A stretch of DNA of 64,000 nucleotides, from assembly GCF_025465275.1 (NCBI RefSeq), contig NZ_JAODNK010000022.1:1-64000 (forward strand). The letters are read 5' to 3'. The position numbers and the translations under genes are program-made. The notes below the pieces were generated by a model. That model searched no databases. It saw only the letters and a list, made by a program, of their open reading frames with translations, and was not told the origin of the DNA. Positions 21,342 to 57,327 of this stretch are shown here, in pieces. Source of the stretch: Nocardia sp. (lineage in GTDB: Bacteria > Actinomycetota > Actinomycetes > Mycobacteriales > Mycobacteriaceae). Position 1 is the stretch's first letter; each line of letters begins with the position of its first letter.

Positions 21342-22118
21342 GTGCAGGTCGTTGTGCGTGCGCTGCGGGTACTCAGTGCGCTGAGTACCAAAGGCGGAGG
21401 AGTTACATTGCAGGAACTCCACGAGGATCTGGACATCCCGGTCGGGAGTCTGCATCGCGTGCTGTCCATCCTCATGCAGGAGAACTTCATCACCCGGTCT
21501 CCCGCGAACAAGCGGTATTTCATCGGCCCGGCCGCGCGCCGGCTGGGGGAAGCGGCCTCGCGGCAGACCCAATTACTGATCACCCCGCACCGCGCGGTCG
21601 TCAAGGCCGCGCAGGTCAGCGGGGAGACAATCTTCTTGACCGAACTGATCGGAGCGCGCGCGGTCTGTGTGGCGCTCGTGGAGGGTCGTCATCCGCTGCG
21701 CCTGTTCGTGCGGATCGGACAGGACATGCCCCTGCACGCCGCGGCGTCCAGCCGTGCGCTGCTAGCCTATCTGCCCACCGCCGACGCGCGAAAGCTGTTG
21801 CAGGCGTATCCACTTGACGCATTCACCCCGGAGACGCCGACCACGGTCGATGAGGTGATCGAACACCTCGAGGTGGTCCGCGAGCGCGGCTACGACATCT
21901 GCGATGATGAACTCGATCGTGGCGTCTGGGCGGTGTCCGCGCCGGTCTTCGCCTCCACCGGATCGGCCGCGGCAAGCGTGACCCTGGCCGCGGCCGGGGG
22001 CCGGATCCAAGATCCGGCCGCCCGCGAAGCGGCCGTGCAGACGGTGCTGGCCGCCGCGCGTGAGATGTCCACCGAGCTCGGATTCGCCGGCGAGGACGTC
22101 GTGGACCCGGACGAATGA
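21342..22118 (+). CDS. IclR-family transcriptional regulator (copy 1)
   Basis: N-terminal wHTH, SPANKRYFIGPAARRLG, MPLHAAASSRALLA effector domain; contains a TTA codon at 21573-21575. Confidence 0.88.
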   Translation: MQVVVRALRVLSALSTKGGGVTLQELHEDLDIPVGSLHRVLSILMQENFITRSPANKRYFIGPAARRLGEAASRQTQLLITPHRAVVKAAQVSGETIFLTELIGARAVCVALVEGRHPLRLFVRIGQDMPLHAAASSRALLAYLPTADARKLLQAYPLDAFTPETPTTVDEVIEHLEVVRERGYDICDDELDRGVWAVSAPVFASTGSAAASVTLAAAGGRIQDPAAREAAVQTVLAAAREMSTELGFAGEDVVDPDE

Positions 22119-23404
22119 CCTCGCTGGAGGGTGTGACGCTGGGTAATGTTCGCCTGCTCGGCGGCCCGCCCGCCGATCTTGTGCTCCGCGACGGACGCAT
22201 TGCCGCGATCCGGGAGCCCACGGCCGCCGCGGGCCGGATCGACTGCGCAGGGCTGGTTGCCCTGCCTGCCTTCGTAGACCTGCACACGCACCTGCGAGAA
22301 CCCGGCGGCGAGGATGCCGAGACCATCGCCTCCGGTACCCGTGCCGCCGCTTACGGCGGATTCTCGGACGTCTTCGCCATGGCCAACTGTGATCCGGTGA
22401 CCGACACGCCCGGCCGCATCCGGTATGTGCTCGACACCGCGGCGCGCACCGCTACCGCGCGGGTACACGCGGTGGGCGCCATCACCACCGGATTGGCGGG
22501 CGAACAGCTTGCGCCCCTGCGCGATATGGCCGCCGCCGGCGCGCGCATGTTCTCCGACGACGGCAGGTGTGTCGACAATCCGGCACTGGTGCGGGCCGCG
22601 CTCGTCGCCGCCCGCGAGACCGGCACGGTGATCGCGCAGCACGCCCAGTGCCGGCACCTGGTCGGGGACGGTCAGATCAATGCCGGGTACGCGGCCGAGC
22701 ACACCGGATTCCCGGGCTGGCCGGGTGTCGGCGAGGAGACCGTTGTCGCGCGCGATGTGGTGCTCGCCGCGGATACCGGTGCGCCACTGCATATCTGCCA
22801 CGTTTCGACCGCGCGCACGGTCGCGGTCGTCCGGTGGGCCAAGGCGCAGGGCTGGCCGGTCACGGCCGAGGTCACCCCGCACCATCTGCTGCTCACCGAC
22901 CGGCAGGCCGCCACCGCGGACACCGTGTACAAGGTCAACCCGCCACTGCGGTCGGCGGAGGATGTGGCCGCTGTGCGCGTCGCGCTACTGGACGGCACCA
23001 TCGACGCGGTCGCGACCGATCATGCGCCGCACACCGCCGCACGCAAGGCCGCCGACTGGTGTGGTGCTGCCTTCGGCATGACCGGGCTGGAGACCGCCCT
23101 CGCCGTTGTCGCCGAGGTGTTCGGGAACGAGCCGGACTGGGCGCTGATCGCACAGCGCATGTCGCACAACCCCGCTCGGATCGGTGGCATCGGCGCATTC
23201 GCCGGCCGGCCATTGCGGGCCGGCGAGCCCGCCACTTTCACTCTCATCGATACCGCGGCGAATTGGACCGTTGATCCCGCCCTGGGCATCAGCCGTTCGC
23301 ACAACAGCCCGATGCGCGGCCTGCGATTCCGGCATCGGCCGGTCGCCACCGTCGTCGACGGCCACCTCACGGCGAATCTGCTGCCGCACTTGCCGCCGGT
23401 CTAG
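22115..23404 (+). CDS. pyrC: dihydroorotase
   Basis: DLHTHLREPGGEDAETIASGTRAAAYGG, ICHVSTARTV, ATDHAPHTAARKA; metal ligands retained; ATGA overlap with the IclR gene. Confidence 0.88.
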   Translation: MTSLEGVTLGNVRLLGGPPADLVLRDGRIAAIREPTAAAGRIDCAGLVALPAFVDLHTHLREPGGEDAETIASGTRAAAYGGFSDVFAMANCDPVTDTPGRIRYVLDTAARTATARVHAVGAITTGLAGEQLAPLRDMAAAGARMFSDDGRCVDNPALVRAALVAARETGTVIAQHAQCRHLVGDGQINAGYAAEHTGFPGWPGVGEETVVARDVVLAADTGAPLHICHVSTARTVAVVRWAKAQGWPVTAEVTPHHLLLTDRQAATADTVYKVNPPLRSAEDVAAVRVALLDGTIDAVATDHAPHTAARKAADWCGAAFGMTGLETALAVVAEVFGNEPDWALIAQRMSHNPARIGGIGAFAGRPLRAGEPATFTLIDTAANWTVDPALGISRSHNSPMRGLRFRHRPVATVVDGHLTANLLPHLPPV

Positions 23405-23509
23405 CGCGAAAGCGGTATCTCACTGCGCAACCGTGCGCCGGATTTCCATTCCGCGAGTAGCCGGATTGACCGGACTAAGGCGCAGCGGGTCAACTTTCAG
23501 CTATGGACA

Positions 23510-24124
23510 TTGCACGGATGGACATTGCACGTTGGGCCGCACGGTATGCCGGGTGACGGCGTGCTGATCGGCGGGGCCGGTACGGGATTCAGCCAGCCGC
23601 ACGAGCACCGCAGAGTGGAGCTGGGCCGCGATATCGTCAGCGCCGCCTACATTCGCGGTGACTTCGTACTCAGCTCGGGCGGACGCAGCAGCTACTACTT
23701 CGACAAATACCTGTTCGAAACCAAGCCGACGATTCTGCGCAGGCTCGCCTCATTTCTCGCAGAGATGGTGCCCAGTGGCATCGACCGGCTCGCCGGACCG
23801 GAACTGGGAGCAGTGGCCCTGGTGACGGCGCTCTCGCTGGAGACGGGCATCCCGTTCGTCATCGTCCGCAAGGGTTCGAAGGGCTACGGCACCTCCCGGC
23901 TCGTGGAAGGTGAACTGCACGAGGGCGAACGGCTGCTGATCGTGGAGGACGTGATCAGCACCGGCTCCGAGGCGCTCAATGCGGCCACCAAGGTGCGGCA
24001 GGCCGGGGCGGATGTGCGGGGCATCCTCGCCGTCATCGACCGCGAACAGGGTGGCGCCGAAAACATTGCGGCCGCGGGGTTCCGGATGGAAGCCCTGTAT
24101 CGACTGAGCGATCTGCCGGTCTGA
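23510..24124 (+). CDS. pyrE: orotate phosphoribosyltransferase (start possibly ATG 23546)
   Basis: PRPP loop LLIVEDVISTGSEALNAA, RKGSKGYGTSRLVEGE. Confidence 0.9.
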   Translation: MHGWTLHVGPHGMPGDGVLIGGAGTGFSQPHEHRRVELGRDIVSAAYIRGDFVLSSGGRSSYYFDKYLFETKPTILRRLASFLAEMVPSGIDRLAGPELGAVALVTALSLETGIPFVIVRKGSKGYGTSRLVEGELHEGERLLIVEDVISTGSEALNAATKVRQAGADVRGILAVIDREQGGAENIAAAGFRMEALYRLSDLPV

Positions 24125-24134
24125 GGAGAAACCG

Positions 24135-24620
24135 ATGAACGTGAGAGAACTCTTGTCCCAGGGCGGCATGCTGGACGCCGGCATCCTCGCCGGAGACGAC
24201 ATCAACTGGTCGAAGTACAACGCCGCGATCGATCCCGGTGGCGCCGAGCAACTCGGCATCGCGCTGGCCGCCGAGCTCGCACCCGCCGCACCCGAGGTCG
24301 TGCTGGTGTGGGAGTCCGCGGAGGATCTGGTGCTCGGGCACATCGTGGCCAGGGAGCTCGGCGTGGCCGTGGTGCGCGCCTACGATTTCGACGGGCTCGT
24401 GCGCTACGTGGGCTCGTTCCCCGACCGCCCGCGTGTGGCGCTGCTCGCCGACGCTTTCCAGGACGCCTTCGTCCTGCGGGCCCTCAATTCGCTGGTGGCA
24501 CAACAGGGTGGCACCGTCATCGCGACCGCGGCACTGGTGCCGACGCCCGCGGTCGACGGCGATCCGACCGCGCGCACGCTGCTCGGCGGCGCACTCACGA
24601 ACGAAGGGGTCGCCGGGTGA
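24135..24620 (+). CDS. phosphoribosyltransferase-fold-like protein with degenerate PRPP loop
   Basis: 161 aa; RVALLADAFQDAFVLRALNSL aligns by position with a PRPP loop but lacks the T/S-G; adjacent to pyrE. Confidence 0.55.
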   Translation: MNVRELLSQGGMLDAGILAGDDINWSKYNAAIDPGGAEQLGIALAAELAPAAPEVVLVWESAEDLVLGHIVARELGVAVVRAYDFDGLVRYVGSFPDRPRVALLADAFQDAFVLRALNSLVAQQGGTVIATAALVPTPAVDGDPTARTLLGGALTNEGVAG

Positions 24621-25939
24621 TGTCGGCAGCGGAACTGGCCGGCCACGACCTCGACGAGGCGGCGGTCGCGGCCCGAATCGGAGTCATGCTCGAGGAACTG
24701 GCGGCGCTCACCGAGCCCGGTCCGGGAGTCACCCGGCTGGCCTACACGCCGACCGAACGGCGGGCGCACGACCTGGTCGCCTCCTGGCTGCGCGAGGCCG
24801 GTCTCACGGTATCGGTCGATGCGGCGGGTAATACGATCGCCGAACTCGCGGGCACCGAACCCGGATTGCCGGCCATCGGCACCGGTTCACACCTGGACAG
24901 CGTCCGCTCGGGCGGGCGCTTCGACGGTATCGCGGGTGTGGTCGCCGCCGTCGAAGTCGTACGGGCACTGGCGGATTCGGGTACACCGCTGCGGCATCCG
25001 GTGCGGGTCGTTGCCTTCGCCGCCGAAGAGGGCGCCCGGTTCGGCCAGTCGTGTATCGGCAGCAAGGCCGTGGCCGGACTGCTCGACGAGGAGCAGGTGG
25101 CCGGACTGCGCGATGCCGACGGGATCTCGCTCGCCGACGCGATGATCTCGGTCGGACTGGCGCCGTCCCGGCTGCGCGAGGCGCGCTGGCAGCCCGAGGA
25201 CTGGGCGGCGTTCCTGGAACTGCATGTCGAGCAGGGCGCGATCCTCGGCGAACAGGGACTGCCCATCGGAATCGTCGATCTCGTCTCCGGCAGCACCCGG
25301 CTGCTGATCGAATGCCGGGGCCGCGCCACCCACAGCGGCAGTACGCCGATGGCGGGCCGGGCCGATGCTCTCGCCGCGGCCGCGGAGATCATCCTGGACG
25401 CCGAAGCGATAGCGCACGATCCGCGGCATCACGGAACCCGTTGCACCGTGGGAAGACTCGAAGTGCTTCCCGGCTCTACCACGACCATCCCCGGACTCAC
25501 CCGCTTGACCCTGGATGTGCGCGACGTCGACAGCGACCGGCAGCGGGATACGGCCACCGAACTGGCGCGGCGCGCGCAGGTGGCCTGCGATCGGCGGGGC
25601 GTCGGCGTCTCCTTCACACTGATCGGCGACGCGTCGCCGGTGGTGCTGCCGGTCTGGGTCCGGCAGGCCGTTTCGGAGGCCTGCGCGGAAACCGGTGCGC
25701 GATACCGGGTGATGAGCAGCGGTGCGAGCCACGACTGCCAGATGGTGAATCATGTGGTGCCCGCCGGACTGCTGTTCGTGCCCAGCCGCGGCGGGCTGTC
25801 CCATGTGCCGGAGGAGTGGACCAGCACCACCGATCTCGCGTACGGGGCGGGCGTGCTGCTGGGGGCGCTGCGGCGGATCGACCGGACTCTGAGCAGTCTG
25901 GCGGACGTAGCCGGCGACAGCGAAGCGGCCACACCGTGA
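24620..25939 (+). CDS. M20 Zn amidohydrolase (N-carbamoyl-L-amino-acid hydrolase / allantoate amidohydrolase family)
   Basis: TGSHLDSVRSGGRFDGIAGV, FAAEEGARFGQS, LELHVEQG, SHVPEEWTS; ATGA overlap with the preceding gene. Confidence 0.9.
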   Translation: MSAAELAGHDLDEAAVAARIGVMLEELAALTEPGPGVTRLAYTPTERRAHDLVASWLREAGLTVSVDAAGNTIAELAGTEPGLPAIGTGSHLDSVRSGGRFDGIAGVVAAVEVVRALADSGTPLRHPVRVVAFAAEEGARFGQSCIGSKAVAGLLDEEQVAGLRDADGISLADAMISVGLAPSRLREARWQPEDWAAFLELHVEQGAILGEQGLPIGIVDLVSGSTRLLIECRGRATHSGSTPMAGRADALAAAAEIILDAEAIAHDPRHHGTRCTVGRLEVLPGSTTTIPGLTRLTLDVRDVDSDRQRDTATELARRAQVACDRRGVGVSFTLIGDASPVVLPVWVRQAVSEACAETGARYRVMSSGASHDCQMVNHVVPAGLLFVPSRGGLSHVPEEWTSTTDLAYGAGVLLGALRRIDRTLSSLADVAGDSEAATP

Positions 25940-27183
25940 CAGCCGCGAATGCACCGCGGCGGTGGCCGTTCTGGTCGGCCGCCGCCGCGACGCGGGTCGC
26001 GGCGCTCGTCACCGAGCCGGATGGACTCAAATCGTGGCCGCACCCCGAGATCAAGGGCCTGGAGAAGAAGTTCGCGGCATTGCACGGCGCCCGCTACGGG
26101 CTCTTCCTCAACTCGGGCACCTCGGCACTGGCGGCCGCCTATTTCGGGCTCGGGCTGCTGCCCGGCGACGAGGTCCTGGTGCCTGCCAACACCTTTCTGG
26201 CGACGGTGACCCCACTGTTCGCCTGCAATCTGGTGCCGGTGCTGTGTGATGCGGACCCGGTGACCGGGCTGCTCGACCTCGCGGACGCCCGCCGCCGGAT
26301 CGGCCCGCGCACCCGGGCGATCGCGGTCACCCACCTGTGGGGCACCCCGATGGACCCGATCGCATTGCGCGCCTTCGCCACCGAGTACTCGCTCGCGGTG
26401 GTCGAGGACTGTTCGCACGGGCACGGCACCCGCACCGTGGCGGGCCCGGTGGGAGGCGACGCCGATGCGGCCGCGTTCAGCATGGGGGCCGCGAAGACCG
26501 TCACCGGCGGCACCGGCGGCATGCTGCTGACCTCCCGGCAGGATGTGTACGAACGCGCAATACTGCTGGGGCTTCCTATGAAACGCGCGGTCACCGACGT
26601 CACGCTGCCGCAGCACGAGGGACTTGCCGCCACCGGGCTGGGCGCCAATCTGCGCGGCAATCCGATGTGTGCGGTGCTGGCGGCCGACCACCTGGACCGC
26701 CTGCCCGAAATCCTCGCCACCAAGAACGCCAATCTGCGGGTGCTCGAAGAGCTGCTGGCGGAGTCCTCCGTGCTCGCACCGCCGGCTCGGCCCGAATACT
26801 GGACCGCCGGAACGCGATTCGGATTCAAGGCCGCTGTCCGGCCCGAGCTGATCGGGCAGATCGACCGGAACGCGGTGGTCGCCTACTTGAAGACGCACGG
26901 TGCACCGGTGAGCGGTGCGCCCGGACCACTTCTGCACCGGCGCAGGCTCTTTCATGATCGTTCCGCGCTGACCGGCTATCACCCCGGCCGCCCGGCCGTC
27001 GAACTCGATGTCGACCCCGAGGGTTATCCGGCCGCCGATCGGATTCAGGAGGCCATGGTGACCGTCGACGCCGAGCTGCTGCACGAGCCCGCGCCCGCAC
27101 TGTTGCGGACCTTCGCCAGGGCGCTGGCCGGACTGGACCGCGAACTCGACCGCTTGGTCCTCGCGCACGGAGTGTGGACATGA
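25936..27183 (+). CDS. DegT/DnrJ/EryC1-family PLP aminotransferase (copy 1)
   Basis: NSGTSALAAAYFGLGLLPGDEVLVPANTF, EDCSHGHG, AAKTVTGGTGG (PLP Lys); GTGA overlap. Confidence 0.92.
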   Translation: MTAANAPRRWPFWSAAAATRVAALVTEPDGLKSWPHPEIKGLEKKFAALHGARYGLFLNSGTSALAAAYFGLGLLPGDEVLVPANTFLATVTPLFACNLVPVLCDADPVTGLLDLADARRRIGPRTRAIAVTHLWGTPMDPIALRAFATEYSLAVVEDCSHGHGTRTVAGPVGGDADAAAFSMGAAKTVTGGTGGMLLTSRQDVYERAILLGLPMKRAVTDVTLPQHEGLAATGLGANLRGNPMCAVLAADHLDRLPEILATKNANLRVLEELLAESSVLAPPARPEYWTAGTRFGFKAAVRPELIGQIDRNAVVAYLKTHGAPVSGAPGPLLHRRRLFHDRSALTGYHPGRPAVELDVDPEGYPAADRIQEAMVTVDAELLHEPAPALLRTFARALAGLDRELDRLVLAHGVWT

Positions 27184-28457
27184 TCAGCACCGATCGAGTC
27201 GCGACCACCGAATTCGGGTTGCGCACGTCCGCTGCATTCGAGCTGCGCCCGGAAGACCATCCCCGCGAATGGCCCTGGTACTCACCGGAAACCGTTGATC
27301 GGATCGCCGAGCTGACCGCGCGGGGGAGGGTTTTCGACTACGGTCACGGACCCGAGATCGCCGAACTGGAATCCGCGTTCGCCACCGCGCACGGCCGCCG
27401 ATTCGCGGTGGCCGCCAACAGCGGCACCAGCGCGCTGTTCGAAGCCTTTCACGGGCTGAACCTGCAGCCCGGCGACGAGGTCGTGGTGCCGACCTTCACC
27501 TTCCTCGCCAGCGCCTCACCGCTGCTGCTGCTCGGCGCGGTGCCGGTGCTCGCCGATGCCGGCGACGCCGCGGGCAATGTCACCGCGGACACTCTCGCCG
27601 CGGCGCTGACCCGGCGTACCGCGGCCATTGTGGTCACCCACCTGTTCGGCGAACCGGTCGATATCGGACCCATTGTGGCGCTGGCCCGACGCGAGGGCCT
27701 GGCCCTGGTGGAGGATTGCTCGCACGCCCACGGCGCGCACTACGCCGACGGCAGACCGGTCGGCACCGCGGGCGATGTGGCCGTGTACAGCATCGGCGCA
27801 CACAAGACGGTGACCGGCGGCCTCGGCGGCGTGCTGCTCACCGACGACGAGGACATCCACGACAATGCCGTGCTGCTGGGTAGTTTCAAACAGCGCAGCC
27901 GGCTGACCATCGCGCGGCCGGAGGTGCGCGCGCTGGCCGATATCGGGCTGGGCGGCAATCTGCGGATTTCCCCGCCGGCCGCGCTACTCGCCGCCGCCCA
28001 TCTGGCCGAACTCGAGGAGATCGTCGCGGTGAAGCAGCGCAACGCATCCCGGCTCGAGTCCGTGCTGACCGGGTTCGCGGGGGTCCGTGCCGTGCCGACG
28101 GCGCCGCAGGCCGACCGGGGCGGCCGCTACGGCGTGCATGTGGAGCTCGATCCGGCCGTATCCCGTGCCGACGCGCTCGCCCGGCTCACCGCGCGCGGAC
28201 TGCTCGTGAGTCCGCCGCAAACCCAGCTGCTGCACCGCAGTTCGCTCTTCCAAGGGGTCCGTCCGCCGCGGCAGCTGTACTCCGAACACGTGTGGCGGCG
28301 CGCATTCGCGTACCGGCACCACGACTTTCCGGTCGCGTCCGGGCTGCACGACCGCTGGGTCGCGCTACCGGCGACGCGTCTGCACGGCGACGCTGATCGG
28401 ATGATCGACGACTATGCCGAGATCTGGGGTCAGGTCTGGGCGGAAATGGGGCTGTGA
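27174..28457 (+). CDS. DegT/DnrJ/EryC1-family PLP aminotransferase (copy 2)
   Basis: NSGTSALFEAFHGLNLQPGDEVVVPTFTF, EDCSHAHGAHY, GAHKTVTGGLGG. Confidence 0.93.
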   Translation: MDMISTDRVATTEFGLRTSAAFELRPEDHPREWPWYSPETVDRIAELTARGRVFDYGHGPEIAELESAFATAHGRRFAVAANSGTSALFEAFHGLNLQPGDEVVVPTFTFLASASPLLLLGAVPVLADAGDAAGNVTADTLAAALTRRTAAIVVTHLFGEPVDIGPIVALARREGLALVEDCSHAHGAHYADGRPVGTAGDVAVYSIGAHKTVTGGLGGVLLTDDEDIHDNAVLLGSFKQRSRLTIARPEVRALADIGLGGNLRISPPAALLAAAHLAELEEIVAVKQRNASRLESVLTGFAGVRAVPTAPQADRGGRYGVHVELDPAVSRADALARLTARGLLVSPPQTQLLHRSSLFQGVRPPRQLYSEHVWRRAFAYRHHDFPVASGLHDRWVALPATRLHGDADRMIDDYAEIWGQVWAEMGL

Positions 28458-29335
28458 TGATCGAATCAGTCTGTGAAGCAGCCGATTCCGTGTCGGTCGA
28501 TACGCCGCTGGTGTTGAGCGACCGTGGTCTGCACACGCTGACCGCCGATCCGCGCCCACTGCTGGCCGCGGTAGCCCCGGGGTCACGCCTGGTGGGCGTC
28601 GGCCCGGGCGGGGTGCTCGTGGGCGCGGTACTGGCCGCGCTGTCTCGTCGCGATTTCGCCTTCTATCGGCGGCAACGCAAGGGGCACGGCACCCGGCAGC
28701 ACATCGAGGGGCGCCACGGCGGTGGCCAGTGGACCGTGGTGCACTGCGGTGCCACCGATCCGGACCTGCTCCGGGCGGCCGGTATGGACGTGGTCGCGGA
28801 GATCCGGGTGACTCGCGAAGAGGGAACGGGTGCTGCCGGATTCATCCTGCCGGAGCCGGAATGCGCACCGGCCGAGCCGGTTTCCCTGGCCGACTCCGTG
28901 GAGTTGCTCACCGGGTCGGAATTCGTGCGGTCCTCCGGAGAACGCGTCGACCACTACTTCGAAACCCTGGCCGCGGCACACACTTACGACGTAGCGGCTC
29001 TGTTCGCCGACACCCTGGGCGGGCGTCCCGACCTGGTGGCGGGCGTGATGTGGGGCGGCTGCTACCTGGCCGCGGTCGCCGCCACCCGGAGGGGGGCGCA
29101 GCTGACCCTCGTCGATCCCGATGGACTCGATCCGGCCGCCGCCCTCGGGCCCGGCATCGGTTCGGTCGCGTTTCTCGACGATCTGGTCAACTCCGGCACG
29201 GACTTCCGCCGCTGCGAACGGCTCGCGGCCCATACCGGGGCGCGCGCCACCTTCCACGCGCTCTACAGTCCGCACGCCCGGGCGGACGTCGACCGCCATC
29301 CGGTCGCCATCGGACACCGGTTGGTTCGCTCATGA
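28454..29335 (+). CDS. divergent phosphoribosyltransferase-fold protein with intact PRPP loop
   Basis: VAFLDDLVNSGTDFRRC matches the PRT signature; ATGA overlap. Confidence 0.65.
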   Translation: MMIESVCEAADSVSVDTPLVLSDRGLHTLTADPRPLLAAVAPGSRLVGVGPGGVLVGAVLAALSRRDFAFYRRQRKGHGTRQHIEGRHGGGQWTVVHCGATDPDLLRAAGMDVVAEIRVTREEGTGAAGFILPEPECAPAEPVSLADSVELLTGSEFVRSSGERVDHYFETLAAAHTYDVAALFADTLGGRPDLVAGVMWGGCYLAAVAATRRGAQLTLVDPDGLDPAAALGPGIGSVAFLDDLVNSGTDFRRCERLAAHTGARATFHALYSPHARADVDRHPVAIGHRLVRS

Positions 29336-30030
29336 CGTACACCCTCGCCGCCGACGGCTGGGATGTGCCGGTGCCGATACACGTGCGCGCACCCGGCGGT
29401 CCGGCCGCACAGGTCGTCCTGATGTTCCACCACCGCACCGGTCTCGATGCGTTCACCGAGGACGCCGCCGCCCGGCTCACCGCGACCGGCGCGCTGGTCG
29501 TCATCCCCGAACTCTTCGCGGGCATGCCCGCGGGACTCGAGCCCGACGAGTACAAATCCCGGTTGCACGACGATCCGGTGATCGACCTGACCCGCATGCT
29601 GGTCGCCGACACCGGAACCCGATTCGGGCTCGGGCGGCCCGCGGCGATCGGCTTCTGCCTGGGCGGGCGGCTCGCGCTGCTGGCCGCGGCGGCCGATACC
29701 GGAGTGCGGCGCGCCAGCTGCTTCTACGGTGGCGCAACGCAAGTCGGCTGGCACAGCCCGCTGTCCCCGATCGACCGGCTGGCCGGCGGCGGCGGAGTTC
29801 CCGTTCAACTACATCGGGGCAACCGGGACTCCGCGGTCACCGCGGAGTCCGAGCTGGCGGCCGTGCAGGCCGCCGACGCGACCGGAACACCGCTGGAAGC
29901 CTGCGTCTACGCGGGCGCGCGGCACGCCTTCTGCAATGCGTCCGATCCGCTCCGGTATCACTCGTATGCCACCGAGCGCGCCTGGGCGAACGCACTGAGC
30001 TTCCTGGCGATGGAAGAGGTGCTCGCATGA
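29332..30030 (+). CDS. dienelactone hydrolase-family protein
   Basis: AAIGFCLGGRLALLAA (Cys nucleophile GFCxGG), ARHAFCN. Confidence 0.87.
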   Translation: MTYTLAADGWDVPVPIHVRAPGGPAAQVVLMFHHRTGLDAFTEDAAARLTATGALVVIPELFAGMPAGLEPDEYKSRLHDDPVIDLTRMLVADTGTRFGLGRPAAIGFCLGGRLALLAAAADTGVRRASCFYGGATQVGWHSPLSPIDRLAGGGGVPVQLHRGNRDSAVTAESELAAVQAADATGTPLEACVYAGARHAFCNASDPLRYHSYATERAWANALSFLAMEEVLA

Positions 30031-30575
30031 TGTCGATCGGCGTGTTCGGCGGGTTCTCGGCGGGGGAAGGCGAGCAATACCGCACTGCCGCACGCGAATT
30101 GGGCACCCTCATCGGGCAGGGCGGGCACCGGCTGGTCTACGGCGGCGGCCGCGGCGGTCTCATGGGTGAGGTCGCCGCGGCGACCCTGGCCGCCGGGGGC
30201 ACCGCGCTGGGCGTGATTCCCGAATTCCTGGTGGCGCGCGATCGGATTGCGCACACGCCGATACATCCGGTCGTCCACACCCCGGATCTGTTCGAGCGCA
30301 AGCGGATCATGATCGCCGAATCGGACTGCTTCGTGGCACTGCCCGGCGGGTACGGCACTCTCGACGAAGTGCTCGACGTGGTGGCGATGCGAGCGCTCGG
30401 CGTGCTGTCGGCGCCGCTGGTATTGCTCGATATCGACGGGGCGTGGCAGGGGTTCCTCACGGTGACCGGAGATCTCCGGAGCCGGGGATTCATTCGCCGC
30501 GATCCGGGATTCCAGCTCGCGGATACCGCGGCCGCCGCCTTCACGCACCTCGCGAGCCTGCACCCGGTGTCCTGA
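30027..30575 (+). CDS. LOG-family nucleotide 5'-monophosphate phosphoribohydrolase
   Basis: GGGRGGLMG and PGGYGTLDE signature motifs; ATGA overlap. Confidence 0.87.
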   Translation: MMSIGVFGGFSAGEGEQYRTAARELGTLIGQGGHRLVYGGGRGGLMGEVAAATLAAGGTALGVIPEFLVARDRIAHTPIHPVVHTPDLFERKRIMIAESDCFVALPGGYGTLDEVLDVVAMRALGVLSAPLVLLDIDGAWQGFLTVTGDLRSRGFIRRDPGFQLADTAAAAFTHLASLHPVS

Positions 30576-33360: not shown

Positions 33361-33389
33361 GCCAGGTGCCGCACCATGCGGCACCTGGC
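33361..33389 (+). terminator. hairpin/attenuator after short ORF
   Basis: GCCAGGTGCCGC-ACCAT-GCGGCACCTGGC, perfect 12-bp stem, no U-tract. Confidence 0.6.
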
Positions 33390-49196: not shown

Positions 49197-49856
49197 CTAA
49201 CGATCCAGTAGATCCAGGAACGATTGCACGTGATCCTCCCGGACGAAACCTTCGGTGTCCGCGAGTTCCCGGTACATCCGCAGTTGCTCACCGCAGAACC
49301 AAGTGAAGGCGTCCAGCTCGACGTCGTCCGCGTCCAGCCGATCCGGGAATCGGCGGTCGTAGAGGTCGCGTCCGACGCCGAACCAGCCGCCGCCCTTGCG
49401 GGTTCGCAGAAAGCGGTCGGTAATCGTCTCCATGCCGGGGTCCAGGAAGAGCGTGAGATCCGGCCGGGGAAATACCGCCGTGATCTGCCGCAGCAGCTCC
49501 TCGGGTACCCCGCGCAGGAGTCCGCGGATCCAGCCCGAATAGACATAGCGGTCGTAGACGACGATCTCACCGGCCTGCAAGGCGGGGAGCGCGACCGCCT
49601 CGAAGGTGAGCCGCAGGTCCGCGATGAACAGCAGTGTCGAGGTCAAACCGCTCAACTCGCTGCGCCTGGTCAATTCGGCTGTCACCGGTGCGAGTTCGGC
49701 ATGCGAATTCCACTTCACCCGGCGCACCGGGCGCGGGGATTTCTCGGCCAGTTGCTGCCCGAGTGTGGTCTTACCGGACCGCGAAACACCCTCCAGGACA
49801 ACGAGCAGCCCGGGGGTGGACTGCCCGGTGAAAGGCAGTATCGGCTCAGACGACAT
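49197..49856 (-). CDS. thymidylate-kinase-like P-loop kinase
   Basis: LVVLEGVSRSGKTTLGQQLAEK, VVYDRYVYSGWIRG. Confidence 0.75.
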   Translation of the reverse strand: MSSEPILPFTGQSTPGLLVVLEGVSRSGKTTLGQQLAEKSPRPVRRVKWNSHAELAPVTAELTRRSELSGLTSTLLFIADLRLTFEAVALPALQAGEIVVYDRYVYSGWIRGLLRGVPEELLRQITAVFPRPDLTLFLDPGMETITDRFLRTRKGGGWFGVGRDLYDRRFPDRLDADDVELDAFTWFCGEQLRMYRELADTEGFVREDHVQSFLDLLDR

Positions 49857-50916
49857 CGGCGGGCCCACTCGCGGGCGGCGGGCCGACATGCTCGGCGAGC
49901 ACCGCGGCATTGCGCCGATGATCGGGACACCATTGGAACTGGATCGCCGCCGCGCCCGCGATGGCGCGTTCGACGAGGCGGGCCGTCGCGTCCACGAGGT
50001 CGGCGAACGGCTGCTGCGGCCCGAGTGCCCATTTGAGGAAGTAGTCGACATTCTGCAGCAGGCGGGTGGCCGCTTCGTCGGCATCCATCGGCCGCACCCG
50101 GGGATGGTCGAGGTCCAGTGCCGCTTCCGGGAACACCAGGTGCCGCAACGGGGTGCGCAGGCGCAGCTCATCACGACTGGAGATCTGCTCCCAGCCGAGG
50201 CGCTGCTTGCTGCCGGCCTCGTACCAGTACAGCTCGCTGGGTCCCATGCCCTCGGGAATCGTTGTGGGAGCGGTGATCCCGAACTCCGGGACATGTGCGG
50301 CGAACCACTGCTGGGTGCCGGTTCCCATGGGCAGGGCCTGCGGCATGCCGCCCACCTCGACCTCGCCGTCCGCCCCTGGAAGCAGCAGGGTGATGTCATT
50401 GCTGAGGTAGCTGTAGCCCGCCGAGACCATGGCCAGCACGAGCGAGGTCTTTCCCGCCATCTTCTCGCCGGCGAAGATCACCCCGCCGTCGCGGGCGCGC
50501 ACGGCACTCGCGTGCACATTGGCCGCGCCGCGGCGCCGGTGCAGTCCGATCACGCTGGCGGTGGTGTACGGGCGTATCTCCCGCAGATACGCGGCGCGGG
50601 TGGTCACGTTCGGGCCGCGCACTTCGACGGTGCCGGGGCCCACCACGATCGTGTCGCCGAGCAGGCCCGCGATGGCGCCGGGAATCAGCGGGGCGTCGTC
50701 CTCCTCGACGACCGTCACCCGCAATTCCGCGGTGCAATTTCGACCGACCTGCGAGCAGTCGGAAGCGGTGCGCACGGCAGCATCGTCCGGTTGCGCGAAC
50801 ATGCCGTAGTCGTACATCAGCGCTGCTCGTGTCTGGGCTCCTGGCGCGTCGATATGCACGGTGATTCCGTGCATATCGAGACGCACGATTTCGGTGGCTA
50901 CCTCGGACTCAGTCAT
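49846..50916 (-). CDS. HPr-kinase-like P-loop protein (HprK family as seen in lasso clusters)
   Basis: VHASAVRARDGGVIFAGEKMAGKTSLVLAMVSAGYSYLSNDITLLL. Confidence 0.75.
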   Translation of the reverse strand: MTESEVATEIVRLDMHGITVHIDAPGAQTRAALMYDYGMFAQPDDAAVRTASDCSQVGRNCTAELRVTVVEEDDAPLIPGAIAGLLGDTIVVGPGTVEVRGPNVTTRAAYLREIRPYTTASVIGLHRRRGAANVHASAVRARDGGVIFAGEKMAGKTSLVLAMVSAGYSYLSNDITLLLPGADGEVEVGGMPQALPMGTGTQQWFAAHVPEFGITAPTTIPEGMGPSELYWYEAGSKQRLGWEQISSRDELRLRTPLRHLVFPEAALDLDHPRVRPMDADEAATRLLQNVDYFLKWALGPQQPFADLVDATARLVERAIAGAAAIQFQWCPDHRRNAAVLAEHVGPPPASGPADVV

Positions 50917-51182: not shown

Positions 51183-52102
51183 CTGTAATCGAATCACCGG
51201 TCGATATGCGGGTCCGAATCGGTGAGCTGTCGCTGGCCAATCCGGTCATGCCCGCCTCCGGATGTTTCGGCCCGGAACTGGGTGCGATCACGGCGGCGGA
51301 CCGGCTCGGCGCGGTTGTCACCAAGACGATCTTCGCCGGCATCCGCTCGGGGAATCCGGCGCACCGGCTGGCGGAGACGCCGCACGGCATGCTGAACTCC
51401 GTCGGCATCCCCAGTCCGGGTGTCGCGCGGTTCCGTGGTGAGGTGCTGCCGCGGTATCAGGCGTTCGGGGTGCCGGTGATCGTCAGCGTGGGCGGGCTGT
51501 CGGTCCAGGAGTACTTCGAGGTGATGGACGAGCTGGCCGGAGCGGAATTCGCCGCCGTCGAGGTCAATGTGTCATGCCCCAATCTGGAGGCCGGCGGCCT
51601 GGAGATCGGCGTCGACCCGCACCTCATCGAGCAGGTGACCCGCGGTGTGGTGGCGCGGACCGAGCGGCCGGTGATCGTCAAACTGACCCCGAATGTCAGC
51701 GCCATCGGAACCCTCGCCCGGGCCGCCGAAGCAGGCGGTGCGGCGGCGGTCACCGTGGCGAACACCTTCACCGCCATGGCCGTCGATCACCTGACCCGGC
51801 GACCGGTGCTCGGCAACAATGTGGGCGGCCTATCCGGGCCCGCCATCAAACCGCTTGCGCTGCGGCTGGTCTGGGAGACCGCGCGGCACGTCTCGGTCCC
51901 CGTGATCGGGTGCGGCGGCGTATCCACGGCCGCGGATGCGGCGGAGTTCCTGCTTGCCGGTGCGACCGCCGTGCAGGTCGGCACCGCGAGTTTCGCCCGC
52001 CCCGACGCCATGCTCACCATCCTCGACGGTCTGCGGGACGTGGCGCGAGCCCAGTCCGTCGATTCGATTCGCACTCTCACCGGAGCGCTGCGCCTCAATT
52101 AG
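51179..52102 (+). CDS. pyrD: dihydroorotate dehydrogenase, class 1B-like
   Basis: NPVMPASGCFG, VEVNVSCPNLEAGG (Cys in NxSCPN), VIGCGGVSTAADAAEFLLAGATAVQVGTA. Confidence 0.92.
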   Translation: MTVIESPVDMRVRIGELSLANPVMPASGCFGPELGAITAADRLGAVVTKTIFAGIRSGNPAHRLAETPHGMLNSVGIPSPGVARFRGEVLPRYQAFGVPVIVSVGGLSVQEYFEVMDELAGAEFAAVEVNVSCPNLEAGGLEIGVDPHLIEQVTRGVVARTERPVIVKLTPNVSAIGTLARAAEAGGAAAVTVANTFTAMAVDHLTRRPVLGNNVGGLSGPAIKPLALRLVWETARHVSVPVIGCGGVSTAADAAEFLLAGATAVQVGTASFARPDAMLTILDGLRDVARAQSVDSIRTLTGALRLN

Positions 52103-52135: not shown

Positions 52136-53365
52136 ATGACCGAGCCAGCCCTGGGCGAAAGTTCGATCCAGGAAACACCGGCCCCGGCCGACCACCCCAT
52201 GAAAATGCTCTGGGCCTCCATCGTCGGCTACGCGGTGGACGGCTTCGACATGCTGCTGCTGAGCGTGGCACTGGTCTCGATCACGGCATCGCTGAAACTG
52301 ACCACCGGCCAGGCGGGTTCGCTGGCCAGCTACACCCTGTTCGGCGCGGTTGTCGGCGGAATCCTGTTCGGCATGCTGAGCGACCGGATCGGCCGGGTCC
52401 GGGTACTGACCTGGACGATTCTGCTGTTCGCCGTCTTCACCGGCCTGTGCGCACTGGCTCAGGACTACACGCAGATGGTGATCCTGCGCTTCCTCGCCGG
52501 TGTCGGCCTGGGCGGGGAGTTCGGTATCGGGATGACCCTCGCCGCCGAAACCTGGCCTGCCGCAAAGCGTGCGCGCGCCACCTCGTATGTCGCGCTCGGC
52601 TGGCAGTTCGGTGTGCTGCTCGCTTCGCTGTCGGGTCTGTGGCTGCTGCCGCACCTGGGCTGGCGCGGTCTGTTCGCGCTGGGTGTGCTGCCGGCCGTCA
52701 TCGCCTACCTGTTCCGCCGGAAGATCGGCGAGCCGGCGATGTTCACGGCGGCCACGCACAAATCGGTGCCGATCAGCGAATTATGGCGCGACAGAGCGAC
52801 TGTGAAGATCAGCCTGGGGCTGATCGTGCTGACCTCGGTGCAGAACTTCGGCTACTTCGGCCTGATGACCTGGCTGCCCAGCTACCTGGCCAAGCACCTG
52901 CACTACGGGCTGACCAAGACCGCGACCTGGACCTCGGTCACGGTGCTCGGCATGGCGGTGGGCATTGTGGTGTTCGGGTGGATCGCGGATCGTTTCGGCC
53001 GCCGGCCCGCGCTGTGCGGCTTCCAGCTCGGTGCGGCGATCTCGGTGGTCGCGTACAGCCAGCTCACCTCGTCCGGTGCGCTGCTGATCGGCGGTGCGAT
53101 CATGGGATTCTTCGTCAACGGAATGCTGGGCGGCTACGGCGCGCTGCTGGCGGAACTGTTTCCGACCGAGGCCCGGGCGACGGCCGAGAATGTGCTGTTC
53201 AATATCGGGCGCGGGGTCGGCGGTTTCGGCCCGTGGCTGATCGGCCTGCTCATCGCGCACTACACGTTCAACTCCACCATCGGATTCCTCGGGTGCATTT
53301 ACCTTGTGGCACTGGTGACTACGGTGTTCCTGATTCCCGAGCGCCGAGGGGTGGCGCTCGTATGA
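52136..53365 (+). CDS. MFS transporter (sugar porter/aromatic acid symporter-like)
   Basis: 12-TM pattern; DGFDMLLLSVAL, GMLSDRIGRVRVL, GEFGIGMTLAAE; TTA codon 52781-52783. Confidence 0.9.
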   Translation: MTEPALGESSIQETPAPADHPMKMLWASIVGYAVDGFDMLLLSVALVSITASLKLTTGQAGSLASYTLFGAVVGGILFGMLSDRIGRVRVLTWTILLFAVFTGLCALAQDYTQMVILRFLAGVGLGGEFGIGMTLAAETWPAAKRARATSYVALGWQFGVLLASLSGLWLLPHLGWRGLFALGVLPAVIAYLFRRKIGEPAMFTAATHKSVPISELWRDRATVKISLGLIVLTSVQNFGYFGLMTWLPSYLAKHLHYGLTKTATWTSVTVLGMAVGIVVFGWIADRFGRRPALCGFQLGAAISVVAYSQLTSSGALLIGGAIMGFFVNGMLGGYGALLAELFPTEARATAENVLFNIGRGVGGFGPWLIGLLIAHYTFNSTIGFLGCIYLVALVTTVFLIPERRGVALV

Positions 53366-54237
53366 TGCCGGATCTGATGTTGCCGCCCGCCGGGGAAGGG
53401 CCGGCGGGACGGCTGACTCCGCTCCCCGGGGAGGCTGCGGGGACCTCCGGTGCGCGGGTGGTGGACGCCGAGGTCGTGGCCAACAGCCATCGTGGTGATC
53501 GCTACTGGCGCTTGCGGCTCTACGCGCCGGAGGTCGCCGCGGCGGCGTCGCCCGGTCAGTTCGTCATGCTGACCGTTGCCGGGTCTCCGGCCGGGTCCCC
53601 GGTGCTGCCGCGCCCGATGGCGTTGTACGACTGGGACTCGCACGCCGGATGGATCGATGTGCTCTACGGTGTGGTGGGGGCGGGCTCGCTGCTCATGACC
53701 GGGTTCGCCACCGACGACCGGATGACCGTCGTCGGCCCGCTCGGCCGCGGGTTCGCACTGGACCCGGCCACGCGGTCGATCCTGCTGGTGGGCCGGGGCA
53801 TCGGCATCTGTTCGCTGACCGCGCTCGCGGGTGCGGCCGCCCGGCGTGGCGTGCACGTCACCGCCGTGCTCAGCGCCCGGTCTCCGGCCGCGCTGACCGG
53901 TCAGGATGTCTTGTCCCGGTACGGGATCGGCGACCTTGTCGAGGTGGTCGACGCCGACGGCTCGAGCGCGCCGATCCGGCTCGCCGAGGCGCTGATCGAC
54001 AAGCTGGACCGGCAGCCGCCCGAGCAGATCTTCACCTGCGGCTCGGAGCGATTGACCGCGCTCTGCGCGGAACTGGCCCTGCGCTGGAACGCCGATCTGC
54101 AGGTATCCCTGGAAGCGCGGATGGCGTGCGGCCTGGGTTACTGTCACGGCTGCTCGTCCGGCCGCCGGACCTCCACAGAAGAGGCTCCACTGGTGTGCAA
54201 GGACGGTCCTGTTTTCCGCTGGCACGAGGGTGAGTGA
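53362..54237 (+). CDS. pyrK: dihydroorotate dehydrogenase electron-transfer subunit-like (FAD/2Fe-2S, PyrK-like)
   Basis: Ferredoxin reductase fold; RPMALYDWD, VGRGIGICSLTALA, ACGLGYCHGCSSG…C 2Fe-2S ligands. Confidence 0.85.
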   Translation: MMPDLMLPPAGEGPAGRLTPLPGEAAGTSGARVVDAEVVANSHRGDRYWRLRLYAPEVAAAASPGQFVMLTVAGSPAGSPVLPRPMALYDWDSHAGWIDVLYGVVGAGSLLMTGFATDDRMTVVGPLGRGFALDPATRSILLVGRGIGICSLTALAGAAARRGVHVTAVLSARSPAALTGQDVLSRYGIGDLVEVVDADGSSAPIRLAEALIDKLDRQPPEQIFTCGSERLTALCAELALRWNADLQVSLEARMACGLGYCHGCSSGRRTSTEEAPLVCKDGPVFRWHEGE

Positions 54238-55364
54238 CCGCCGTGCAGTCCCCCGACCGTGATGTGCTGGAGCGCTGGATCGCCCGGCTCGGCGGGCTGC
54301 CCCGGCGCAGCCCGCCGATCGCCCGGGGTGATCGCCTGTTCTATACCGAACGGGGGAGCGGGGAGCGGCACCCGTCCCTGTGGATGTGCCATCCGTCCGG
54401 TACGGCCCGCCTGATCGATCCGGCCCGGTGGAATTCGCCGCATCCGGTGTGGATCACCGACTGGAGCGTCTCCCCGGACGGTAGGCGAATCACATTCCGG
54501 CTCAACCGCAATCGGGCCGCCGTCCTGCTGCTGGACATAGCCACCGGCCGGATCACCGGCGCGCCGAAGCCGGAGCTGCGGCGGCCCGTGATCGCATCGT
54601 GTGGCTCCGGGCTGCGGACCGTGCTCGCCGCCGACCCGGAAGCCGTGGTGCGGCACCTGGTTCCGCTCGACGGCATGGTGGCCGTCGCGCGATGGCGGAA
54701 CGGGCGCTCAGAGGTAGTGGTCGTGGATTCGGATTCCGGTGCGGTGCAGGCGGTTCCGCTTCCCGGAGTGGGGACGGTCTCCGGTATGACGGGCACCGCC
54801 GAGGGGCAGCGCAGGCTGTGGATCGGGTACGCCGAGCCCACGCGCCCCGGTTCGGTGCTGGAGGTGGATCTGTCCTCGCCCCGGCACCCGGTGGTGCGGG
54901 ACTGGTATCGCCCGGATCGGATCGGCCCGCTGCCCCGCATTCGGCGGCTGGGTCTGATGTGCGTTTCCGCGGCGGGCGCCGAGCTCGAGATCAGCGTGCT
55001 GCGCCGGGCCAATGGAACGGCCGGGCCGGTGCCCACGGTGCTCAGTTTCTGGGGCGGGGTCCGGTCGCAGCCCCGTCTCGGATTCGATCCGGGCACCCTG
55101 ACCTGGGTGCTGGCCGGGGGAGCCCATGCGGTGGCCCGTGCGCGGGGCGAGTCCGCGGATCTCGTAGCGGCCGCCGAATGCCTGGTGAATGCCGGTCTGG
55201 CGCATCCGGATCAGCTGGCGGTGATCGACGGCCCGCTCGCCTCCGCTGCCGGGATCGCCCTCCTGGCCGAGATTCTCGGTCTGCCGCTGCATCGACTGTG
55301 GGGTCTGGAAAAGCAGCGATCAGTGCCTGCGGAAGGAATGGTGCCGACGTGCCTGAAGCACTGA
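54234..55364 (+). CDS. prolyl-oligopeptidase-like beta-propeller protein with degenerate hydrolase part
   Basis: YTERGSGERHPSLWM, DWSVSPDGRRITFRLNRN; ADLVAAAECLVNAGLAHPDQLAVIDGPLASAAGIALLAEI resembles POP but lacks GGSNGG. Confidence 0.6.
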   Translation: MTAVQSPDRDVLERWIARLGGLPRRSPPIARGDRLFYTERGSGERHPSLWMCHPSGTARLIDPARWNSPHPVWITDWSVSPDGRRITFRLNRNRAAVLLLDIATGRITGAPKPELRRPVIASCGSGLRTVLAADPEAVVRHLVPLDGMVAVARWRNGRSEVVVVDSDSGAVQAVPLPGVGTVSGMTGTAEGQRRLWIGYAEPTRPGSVLEVDLSSPRHPVVRDWYRPDRIGPLPRIRRLGLMCVSAAGAELEISVLRRANGTAGPVPTVLSFWGGVRSQPRLGFDPGTLTWVLAGGAHAVARARGESADLVAAAECLVNAGLAHPDQLAVIDGPLASAAGIALLAEILGLPLHRLWGLEKQRSVPAEGMVPTCLKH

Positions 55365-56212
55365 ATACCCGTTTGCGCGAGTGGCTTTCGAACGGACGCC
55401 CGCCGATTGCCCTGATACTGGAGCCGAATCGCTCCGCGCTGCTGCACTGCGGGTTGCCCGATACTCCGCTCGGCGCCCTCACTCTGACCGGACGAGTGGT
55501 GGCGGCCGCCCGGGATCTGGTGCCGCTGATCAAGATTCAGCCGGCCGCCTTCGAACGGTTCGGCCCGGAGGGCTGGTCCGCCTGCCAGGAGGCGATCGCC
55601 CTGATCCGCGCGGCGGAGATCGGTGTACTCCTGGATTTCAAACGTGCGGACCACGCCCCGGTGCTGACCTCGCTGATCGCCACCTATACCGGCCCCTATA
55701 GCGCCTATGGGGCCGACGGATTGACGCTGCTGCCGTATCTCGGTCTGGGCGAGATCGACCGTGCAGCAGAGGAATTGGCGGTGCATGGTGGTCTGCTGCT
55801 GGTGATCGCCATGACGTCCAATCCGGGCGCCGAGCTGGTACAGCGGGCGGTGAGCGAGGGCGTACCGGTGGCGGAGGCGGTCGTGCGATCGTTGCCCGAC
55901 CACGACGGGGTCGGATGTGTGCTCGGTGGGTCGCCGCAGCTCGCCGCGTGCCTGATCGAGTCGACGGATCGCCTTGTCGTGCTACCGGGTTGGGGGCGGC
56001 CCGGTGTCGATTGCGCCGAACTGCTCGGTGCCCGGGGCGCGGCCACCGATCGGGTGCTGTTCAGCATCGGCAGCCGGCTGCTGGCCGATCCCGCTCGGAT
56101 GCGCGAGTTCCTGGCCGAGCAGGCCGAGTGGATGGCTTCCTCGATTCCGAGGGTCGCAAGGCGGCGCCGAAATCACACCGGCGCCGAAATCAGAGAAGGT
56201 ATCGGGATATGA
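55349..56212 (+). CDS. pyrF: orotidine 5'-phosphate decarboxylase
   Basis: VPLIKIQPAAFERFG, GVLLDFKRADHA (DxKxxD), LVVLPGWGRPG; GTG start overlapping upstream ORF. Confidence 0.87.
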   Translation: MPEALNTRLREWLSNGRPPIALILEPNRSALLHCGLPDTPLGALTLTGRVVAAARDLVPLIKIQPAAFERFGPEGWSACQEAIALIRAAEIGVLLDFKRADHAPVLTSLIATYTGPYSAYGADGLTLLPYLGLGEIDRAAEELAVHGGLLLVIAMTSNPGAELVQRAVSEGVPVAEAVVRSLPDHDGVGCVLGGSPQLAACLIESTDRLVVLPGWGRPGVDCAELLGARGAATDRVLFSIGSRLLADPARMREFLAEQAEWMASSIPRVARRRRNHTGAEIREGIGI

Positions 56213-57327
56213 CGGTTCTGTTCGATCTGGATTCTCACCTGCAAATGGGTGCGGAGGAGATGGTCGCCGTGTTCGGACACGCCGCCAGCGTTCTGCCCGG
56301 TGCCGCGGCGGCCGTGAGCCGCCCGGCGGACGAGGTGCCCACGGCGGCTCCGCAAGTCGATCCGGCGACGGTCTGGCAGGTGAAGGGTTCGCGCGCACCG
56401 GGTGCGGCGGTGGCCGCGGATCGGGTGTCCGTACTGGACGCCATGGGCGTCGGCAGGCAATTGGTGCTGCCGCGGGTACGGGTGGCGCTCGCCGCGTGGC
56501 GCGGCGACGAGCCCGCGGCGACCGGTCTGGTACGACGCTACAACGATTTCATCGCCGACTGGCAGCGGCCCTATCCGGAGCGGCTGTACGGCGCCGGCAT
56601 CCTGACCATGCGGGATCCGGAGTCCGCGGTCGCGGAGGCGGTGCGCGCGGCCGAGGCGGGTCTGCGCGCGGTGCTGCTGCCATGTGTCGAGCCGCCGGGC
56701 GGGCGGTCACCGGCCGATCCGGCGTGGGAACCATTGTGGCGCACCCTGTCCGAGTCCGGTCTGGCGGTGATCCTGCACGCCGGCTCGGAGAGCGGTTTCG
56801 TCGATTCTCGATGGAAGCCGCCGGCGGATCTCGGCTTCACCGATCGGGCCGAGGGCGTTCGCGACAAGATCGACGTCGAGACGGTGGATCTCTTCAAGCT
56901 GATCACCATGCAGTACGGCCCCCAGATCCTGCTGTCCAGTCTGGTGCTCGGTGGCGTGCTGGAGCGGTTTCCGGACCTGCGATTCGCGGTGCTCGAGCTC
57001 GGCGCCGACTGGGTGGCGCCGTTCGTTCGCATGCTCGATGCCCGGGTCCGGGAGTTCGGGTCCTACAGCGACGTTCGACTGACCTGCCTGCCGAGCGAGG
57101 TGCTGCTGCGTCAGCTGCGGGTCAGTCCCTTCCACTGGGAGGCGGTCGCGGACTATCTGGCCGACGAGGAACTCTTTCCGCTGTACTCGTTCTCGACCGA
57201 TTTCCCGCATTCGGAGGGCGGTCAGCAGACGTACCCGATTGCCGAGCGCACGCTCGCGCACCTTCCGGAACCGGTGCGCCGCTCCTATTTCTCCGAGAGT
57301 GCGGGACTGATATTGCGTGCCGGGTGA
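56209..57327 (+). CDS. amidohydrolase 2 family protein (ACMSD/decarboxylase-like)
   Basis: LFDLDSHL, VILHAGSESG, LELGADWVAPFVRMLD, FSTDFPHSEGG; ATGA overlap with pyrF. Confidence 0.82.
   Translation: MTVLFDLDSHLQMGAEEMVAVFGHAASVLPGAAAAVSRPADEVPTAAPQVDPATVWQVKGSRAPGAAVAADRVSVLDAMGVGRQLVLPRVRVALAAWRGDEPAATGLVRRYNDFIADWQRPYPERLYGAGILTMRDPESAVAEAVRAAEAGLRAVLLPCVEPPGGRSPADPAWEPLWRTLSESGLAVILHAGSESGFVDSRWKPPADLGFTDRAEGVRDKIDVETVDLFKLITMQYGPQILLSSLVLGGVLERFPDLRFAVLELGADWVAPFVRMLDARVREFGSYSDVRLTCLPSEVLLRQLRVSPFHWEAVADYLADEELFPLYSFSTDFPHSEGGQQTYPIAERTLAHLPEPVRRSYFSESAGLILRAG

Follow-up and report, generated by a model that had tools for sequence, protein, structure and literature searches.

Known pairs of AurF-family and AsnB-family enzymes convert glutamine to its gamma-hydroxamate and then transfer hydroxylamine to a carboxylate (PMC13418202; PMC5719088; PMC11160463). 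In the trichostatin/benzohydroxamate system (TsnB6/7/9) an AurF-family oxygenase adjoins an AsnB-family transferase, while the pairs ActI/ActJ and MatA/MatC of actinonin and matlystatin are proposed to form the hydroxamate without TsnB6; the substrates of the latter are made by non-ribosomal peptide synthetases (NRPS), and neither a ribosomal peptide nor a RiPP recognition element (RRE) is described there. Among ribosomally synthesized and post-translationally modified peptides (RiPPs), the AsnB-like enzyme PesC of nitrilobacillin biosynthesis (pes) acts on the C-terminal carboxylate (PMC13060819), and in the PEARL pathways to ammosamide and 3-thiaglutamate a ribosomal peptide is the scaffold for a small molecule. 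Here we analyze a stretch of 64,000 nucleotides of Nocardia sp. (the window; contig C186 of a host genome of 9.67 Mb in 242 contigs), in which the locus at 21342–57327 brings an AurF/AsnB pair together with a conserved 22-residue ribosomal peptide and a second set of pyrimidine genes. As far as the open-licence PMC literature shows, the gene cassette built around this peptide is apparently undescribed.

As an initial annotation of the window had noted, the locus is tightly packed: 35 genes were called by codon bias, with two 22-aa open reading frames (ORFs) in addition, at a coding fraction of 94% and with nine 4-bp overlaps of the ATGA/GTGA type. Functions were assigned by Pfam and NCBIfam domain scans, which agreed with nearly all of those named before, including the M16 peptidase, the LOG protein, the enzyme resembling phosphoribosyl pyrophosphate (PRPP) synthetase, the ATP-grasp and pyridoxal phosphate (PLP) enzymes, the diiron oxygenase, the nucleotidyltransferases (NTases) and the exporters, both ABC and major facilitator superfamily (MFS) (Table 1).

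The closest solved relative of the cassette AsnB is the hydroxyamidotransferase TsnB9 (7ylz; profile E 1.1e-54, fold E 1.8e-28), with E. coli AsnB behind it. The start of the gene was corrected to 44906 (MCGLAG...), and the glutaminase Cys2 is kept in 23 of the 23 members checked. Fused to the enzyme is a tail that matches PqqD with 91.6% probability (E 8e-7; control segments 0.05–1.2%) and is modelled as strands within 643–675 followed by three helices. In the AurF protein, which belongs to its family by sequence and is 36.6% identical to SaAmOx (L037), seven conserved residues match in spacing what we take to be the AurF diiron ligands; amide-oxygenase activity is predicted. The NTase model (pLDDT 91) has a fold like that of the kanamycin/ANT O-nucleotidyltransferases. 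Compared with TsnB6/7/9 the window adds the ribosomal peptide, a PqqD protein, the NTase and the fused tail. The pes cluster contains M16 peptidases, as here, but uses MNIO and HExxH enzymes and an R(V/T)DN C terminus, none of which was found in the window scans or peptides; likewise the PEARL (LanB-like) enzyme is not in the window scans, and the locus has a peptide of fixed length and the AsnB/AurF/NTase set.

Comparison of small ORFs exposed the peptides, whose ORFs in most loci immediately precede AsnB, and a motif search then collected them. The family comprises 26 distinct sequences, each of exactly 22 aa, which align without gaps; M1, Y4, K6 and P7 are invariant in all 26, and K3 and K10 nearly so. 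Because 16 of the 26 contain neither Asp nor Glu, the C terminus is the sole carboxylate in most of them. The pattern in the window, ATGNNNAARTAYNNNAARCC, occurs there twice, against 0.00 times in shuffles, and two or three copies of the peptide are also found in L040, L046 and L060. The 22-aa ORFs of the window, reported in the initial annotation, are genuine, conserved genes.

How strictly the peptide belongs to the cassette became apparent when 84,980 species were scanned with an AurF alignment, yielding at least 48 loci. Among the matches listed, AsnB was called in 23 loci; PqqD and NTase share exactly one set of 21, to which L036 is added on the strength of its annotation. The peptide is present in all 22 loci with AsnB, NTase, PqqD and AurF, the window included, and by motif search absent from the 26 other AurF loci, again among the matches listed. 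The Fisher p for its co-occurrence with PqqD and NTase, 3.7e-14, should not be taken as a true probability, since the loci are related by descent and several of them come as almost identical pairs (L057/L058, L061/L067, L064/L068). When 395 class members were then searched by profile as an out-of-sample test, one new cassette emerged (L123, genome G237), in which a 22-aa peptide, MKKYTKPEATKVSFGAVLGLKV, was found blind; its gene order, MFS-AsnB-NTase-PqqD-AurF, is that of the window, and its AsnB is 54% identical. An encoded precursor peptide conserved together with modifying enzymes, and RRE-type domains in both the PqqD protein and the AsnB tail with predicted peptide binding, bear out the RiPP-type machinery of the initial annotation.

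The YxxP spacing of the 22-mer is that of lasso leaders, in which Y(-17) and P(-14) are recognized by the B1 (RRE) protein (PMC10368454). Since 18 residues follow the Tyr, the 22-mer has about the length of a leader with no core, and from its sequence it looks like just that, a docking tag without cargo.

The explanation that we favour, with roughly even confidence, is that a RiPP-like carrier-peptide cassette is here joined to a second pyrimidine set supplying its partner, as two modules. The coupling is plausible, and we infer it, together with each chemical step that follows. In the first module the leader-only peptide would be bound by the RRE domains of the free PqqD protein and the AsnB tail. 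AurF would N-hydroxylate a nitrogen donor, which is most likely glutamine and would become the gamma-hydroxamate; AsnB would adenylate the C-terminal carboxylate of the peptide and load it with hydroxylamine (or ammonia), so that a C-terminal hydroxamate or amide results; and the ANT-like NTase would then nucleotidylate the new O (or N). The C terminus is the suggested site because the peptides mostly lack side-chain carboxylates, and hydroxamate (or amide) formation followed by nucleotidylation on a carrier peptide appears to be the most economical reading. The activated conjugate may serve to assemble or transport a small polar metabolite, different from locus to locus, which a peptidase (here probably M16) would release for export. 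In the second module the extra pyrimidine enzymes and the tailoring enzymes (PLP, LOG, PRPP-synthetase-like, kinase) would supply a pyrimidine- or orotate-type partner.

The pyrimidine genes of the window are extra copies, because pyrC (C158), pyrD (C34), pyrE (C56) and pyrF (C212) also sit on other contigs of the host genome; a housekeeping pyr operon is ruled out by these second copies. To this extent the dedicated pyrimidine pathway of the initial annotation stands, but a large part of it is of a type seen elsewhere without peptide genes, and the extra phosphoribosyltransferase (PRT) folds claimed for ORFs 24135–24620 and 28457–29335 are weakly PRT-like at best; about 550 genomes contained no relative of the second (g25) over its full length. 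The reductive orotate route leads from orotate via dihydroorotate and carbamoyl-aspartate to aspartate. PyrC, PyrD1B, PyrK, M20 and MFS, the gene set expected of an orotate-assimilation operon, are all present in the locus, and because this set fits the reductive route, the IclR, PyrC, M20, PyrD-1B, PyrK, MFS and orotate phosphoribosyltransferase (OPRT) genes read as an operon of the orotate-assimilation or catabolic type. The same enzymes are arranged as pyrC-M20-DHODH-PyrK-MFS (DHODH, dihydroorotate dehydrogenase) on Klebsiella plasmids and as MFS-PyrK-DHODH-M20-OPRT on Roseomonas plasmids, there without the peptide cassette, LOG, DegT or orotidine monophosphate decarboxylase (OMPDC). Searched with PyrK, 200 relatives yielded a single strong match, G161 (50%), whose neighbourhood comprises IclR, amidohydrolase, PrpD-like, DHODH, MFS, g21-like, M20 and PyrK genes; the proteins are 35–57% identical to their window counterparts (amidohydrolase 28%), and homologues of AsnB, AurF, PqqD and NTase were not found within 75 kb.

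This operon type, and a number of further observations, weigh against the two-module explanation. The cassette and the pyr genes belong to different transcription blocks. Elsewhere the cassette occurs without pyrC/D/E/K, and no relative has pyr genes together with the cassette apart from the single OMPDC of L060. Neither 152 congeners nor about 395 class members yielded a locus in which both halves are retained. The initial annotation had held that it would fail if the pyr genes were sole copies and the flanking genes not co-conserved with them, or if no homologous locus kept both halves; since none with both halves came up in these genomes, its own test tells half against it. On the side of the chemistry, a test for the TsnB6 accessory subunit was negative, and the cassette AsnBs form a clade of their own (100/100). 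TsnB9 lies outside it, together with a different AsnB-family protein that the host genome of the window encodes; hydroxamate formation is therefore proposed by analogy. Finally, the C-terminal half of the window peptides does not follow the [GS]TVL consensus.

As an alternative, a mobile peptide cassette may have been inserted in or next to an operon for orotate uptake and catabolism, the neighbours being unrelated and the cassette product containing no pyrimidine. PyrD1B/PyrK, PyrC, M20 and MFS would then degrade orotate to aspartate, with OPRT and OMPDC salvaging orotate. The operons of G161, Klebsiella and Roseomonas, and the cassettes without pyrC/D/E/K, speak for such an arrangement, which we consider possible but somewhat unlikely. 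Against it, the orotate-type set is split to both ends of the locus, and 4-bp overlaps (M20-DegT, PyrK-propeller) tie it to biosynthetic-looking genes, on the left to the DegT aminotransferases and on the right to the propeller protein, with which the OMPDC-like protein and the amidohydrolase are likewise joined by overlaps. The LOG, PRPP-synthetase-like, thymidylate-kinase-like (TMK-like) and PLP genes moreover suit a nucleotide-derived product.

A further argument for linkage comes from Streptomyces locus L060, where two 22-aa peptides, an M20-domain protein, an OMPDC, a BtpA-family protein and a TMK-like kinase precede AsnB-NTase-PqqD-AurF-MFS on one strand (1349–11000). This OMPDC scores over the model cut-off and is no close relative of g51, so its association with the cassette would be independent of that in the window. 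Although a single case, L060 is the best support for pyrimidine nucleotides mattering to the pathway. Another locus with AurF, near carAB-pyrB-pyrC (L066), was discarded as a parallel; there the pyr genes are encoded on the other strand and resemble a normal housekeeping block.

We regard as improbable a Trojan-horse peptide-nucleotide of the microcin C kind, in which AsnB would amidate the C terminus, the NTase would add a (modified pyrimidine) nucleotide there, and the pyr, TMK-like and LOG enzymes would make or handle that nucleotide. The strict tie of the ANT-like NTase to the peptide would fit, as would the exporters, the OMPDC in both the window and L060, and the TMK-like kinase that adjoins the cassette in several loci. 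However, no ThiF/MccB-type adenylating enzyme is among the scanned window genes, microcin C needs no N-oxygenase, and the cassette is also found in phosphonate and aminocyclitol contexts. The lasso-like character seen by the initial annotation is highly improbable and was rejected when the core, protease and cyclase tests all failed: phosphorylated lasso clusters of the paeninodin type share the YxxP leader motif, a PqqD-like B1, an AsnB-like C, and HprK-like and nucleotidyltransferase genes, but nothing core-like follows the leader-like 22 aa (the peptides end at residue 22, with no Asp/Glu at core positions 7–9, and most contain neither residue), a B2 transglutaminase-like leader protease is not among the scanned window genes, and AsnB reaches 180 bits where the lasso cyclase model NF033535 has its cut-off at 525. 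The HprK-like kinase named in this connection does have a match, but a weak one (28.1 and 17.6 bits with HprK_rel_A and HprK_rel_B, against cut-offs of 200), and as bait it retrieved weak, short partial matches at most in 200 relatives.

The surroundings of the cassette elsewhere suggest how variable its partner may be. Within the genus of the window, the cassette AsnB is found in 1 of 152 genomes, the window's own. Three Streptomyces plasmids carry AsnB, AurF, MFS, PqqD and NTase sets (tblastn against plasmids) in different surroundings: phosphonate-like genes with LanM, aminocyclitol-like genes, and radical-SAM/aminotransferase/formyltransferase genes. Other neighbours include phosphoenolpyruvate (PEP) mutase and phosphonopyruvate decarboxylase (L051), PanC (L047, L050, L051), ThrC (L053), enolase (L064, L068), a pyruvate-kinase barrel (L041) and PdxJ (L123); because these genes differ, the partner pathway varies between loci. 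The central-metabolism copies could have a biosynthetic role, or else be resistant versions of enzymes that hydroxamate-type inhibitors hit; PEP mutase and phosphonopyruvate decarboxylase look biosynthetic, so the resistance idea stays secondary. Further copies of this kind (aconitase, PGI and PurN-like) occur near cassettes within the set L035, L041, L047, L050, L051, L053, L061, L064, L068 and L123.

Taking the two-module explanation further, the core-less 22-mer might carry activated hydroxylamine (peptide-CO-NH-O-nucleotide) as a handle for nitrogen transfer or conjugation in many unrelated pathways, used here by a dedicated pyrimidine pathway whose product would be a pyrimidine antimetabolite built on the peptide, a proposal that we make tentatively and think rather unlikely in full. 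If true, actinomycetes would widely employ ribosomal peptides as handles that can be reused in making small molecules, by way of AsnB, AurF and a nucleotidyltransferase, not of aminoacyl-tRNA ligases, with a hint at a new route to small antimetabolites built on a ribosomal peptide. The fixed-length motif would offer an easy handle for mining genomes for cryptic clusters of polar metabolites (phosphonate, aminocyclitol and nucleotide contexts), and the copies of central-metabolism enzymes next to the cassette may indicate substrates or targets.

Table 1. Genes and peptides of the locus at 21342–57327, in window coordinates
Feature	Position	Strand	Evidence
IclR-family regulator (g18)	21342..22118	+	Pfam IclR_C 1.3e-28; 49% identity to IclR adjoining G161 orotate-type operon
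Dihydroorotase PyrC, second copy (g19)	22115..23404	+	TIGR00857 359 bits, over cut-off; housekeeping copy at C158
OPRT, second copy (g20)	23546..24124	+	TIGR00336 over cut-off; other copy at C56
Unknown protein 5' of M20 hydrolase (g21)	24135..24620	+	35% identical homologue, same position in G161
M20 hydrolase, ureidosuccinase/carbamoylase-like (g22)	24620..25939	+	Pfam Peptidase_M20 9e-24; 52% to G161; operon position as in L105/L106
DegT/DnrJ PLP aminotransferase (g23)	25936..27183	+	domain scan
DegT/DnrJ PLP aminotransferase (g24)	27174..28457	+	domain scan
Orphan protein, weak PRT resemblance (g25)	28457..29335	+	weak TIGR00336 match
Dienelactone-hydrolase-like (g26)	29332..30030	+	domain scan
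LOG-type phosphoribohydrolase (g27)	30027..30575	+	TIGR00730 over cut-off
PLP enzyme, weakly CobD-like (g28)	30603..31562	+	domain scans
NTP_transf_5 nucleotidyltransferase (g29)	31758..33074	+	domain scan
M16 metallopeptidase (g30)	33376..34647	+	domain scan; HxxEH intact, as HMLEH
Unknown protein (g31)	34644..35492	+	no family matched in scans
NTP_transf_5-like (g32)	35419..36606	+	domain scan, slightly below cut-off
Three-gene ABC-2 exporter (g33-g35)	36603..39110	+	domain scan; homologous exporters adjoin cassette in L053, L061, L067
PRPP-synthetase-like (g36)	39299..40207	+	TIGR01251 over cut-off
GT2-like glycosyltransferase (g37)	40218..41060	+	domain scan
Second IclR-family regulator (g38)	41189..42010	+	domain scan
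ATP-grasp ligase (g39)	42010..43029	+	domain scan
Putative 22-aa scaffold peptide 1, MKKYVKPATKPVAASSCRSHRA	43321..43389	+	peptide family motif; AGGAGGTG ribosome-binding site
Putative 22-aa scaffold peptide 2, MTKYIKPTTKPVSACSRSLHSA	43449..43517	+	peptide family motif; AGGAGGTG ribosome-binding site
MFS exporter of cassette (g40)	43589..44863	+	domain scan; locus comparison
AsnB-type amidotransferase with C-terminal PqqD-like domain (g41)	44906..47152	+	profile, fold, tree comparisons
ANT-like nucleotidyltransferase (g42)	47152..47931	+	structure model and fold match
PqqD-family RRE protein (g43)	47987..48223	+	Pfam PqqD 3.9e-11
AurF-family diiron N-oxygenase (g44)	48223..49161	+	Pfam AurF 9.2e-20; conserved E78, E113, H116, E171, H198, E202, H205
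TMK-like kinase, recurs beside cassette (g45)	49197..49856	-	domain scan; locus comparison
Divergent HprK-like kinase (g46)	49846..50916	-	HprK_rel_B E 1e-6, far under cut-off
Dihydroorotate dehydrogenase 1B, second pyrD (g47)	51206..52102	+	over model cut-off; 57% to G161
MFS transporter of orotate-type operon (g48)	52136..53365	+	51% to G161; 57-59% to Klebsiella and Roseomonas operon MFS
PyrK-like electron-transfer subunit (g49)	53362..54237	+	domain scans; homologue in G161
Beta-propeller, S9-peptidase type (g50)	54234..55364	+	domain scans
OMPDC-like, second pyrF (g51)	55349..56212	+	108.9 bits vs cut-off 110.6; D-x-K-x-x-D kept as DFKRAD
Amidohydrolase_2 (g52)	56209..57327	+	domain scan

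Two other arrangements of AurF genes were seen in the scan. An outlying AsnB pair, L069/L070, represents an AsnB-AurF-HIT-MFS variant with a HIT-like protein in place of NTase and PqqD, and is accompanied by a different conserved peptide of 19–20 aa, of the MTKVSDKQIDARTAAMARI type (L069 9775–9837; L070 about 9759–9818); L124, which has the same peptide, is probably from the same genome as L070 and was not counted as independent. Loci L042, L043, L044, L048 and L065 share another AurF gene set, without the cassette AsnB or the peptide, in several Streptomyces including S. candidus.

Outside the locus, the window contains a ComA-like phosphosulfolactate synthase gene adjoining those of an acyltransferase and an AMP-binding enzyme (6160–9484), an NRPS with one module (C-A-PCP-TE) and, after it, a DUF6875 protein (12494–17001), and two SulP permease-carbonic anhydrase fusion genes in succession (58053–62724).

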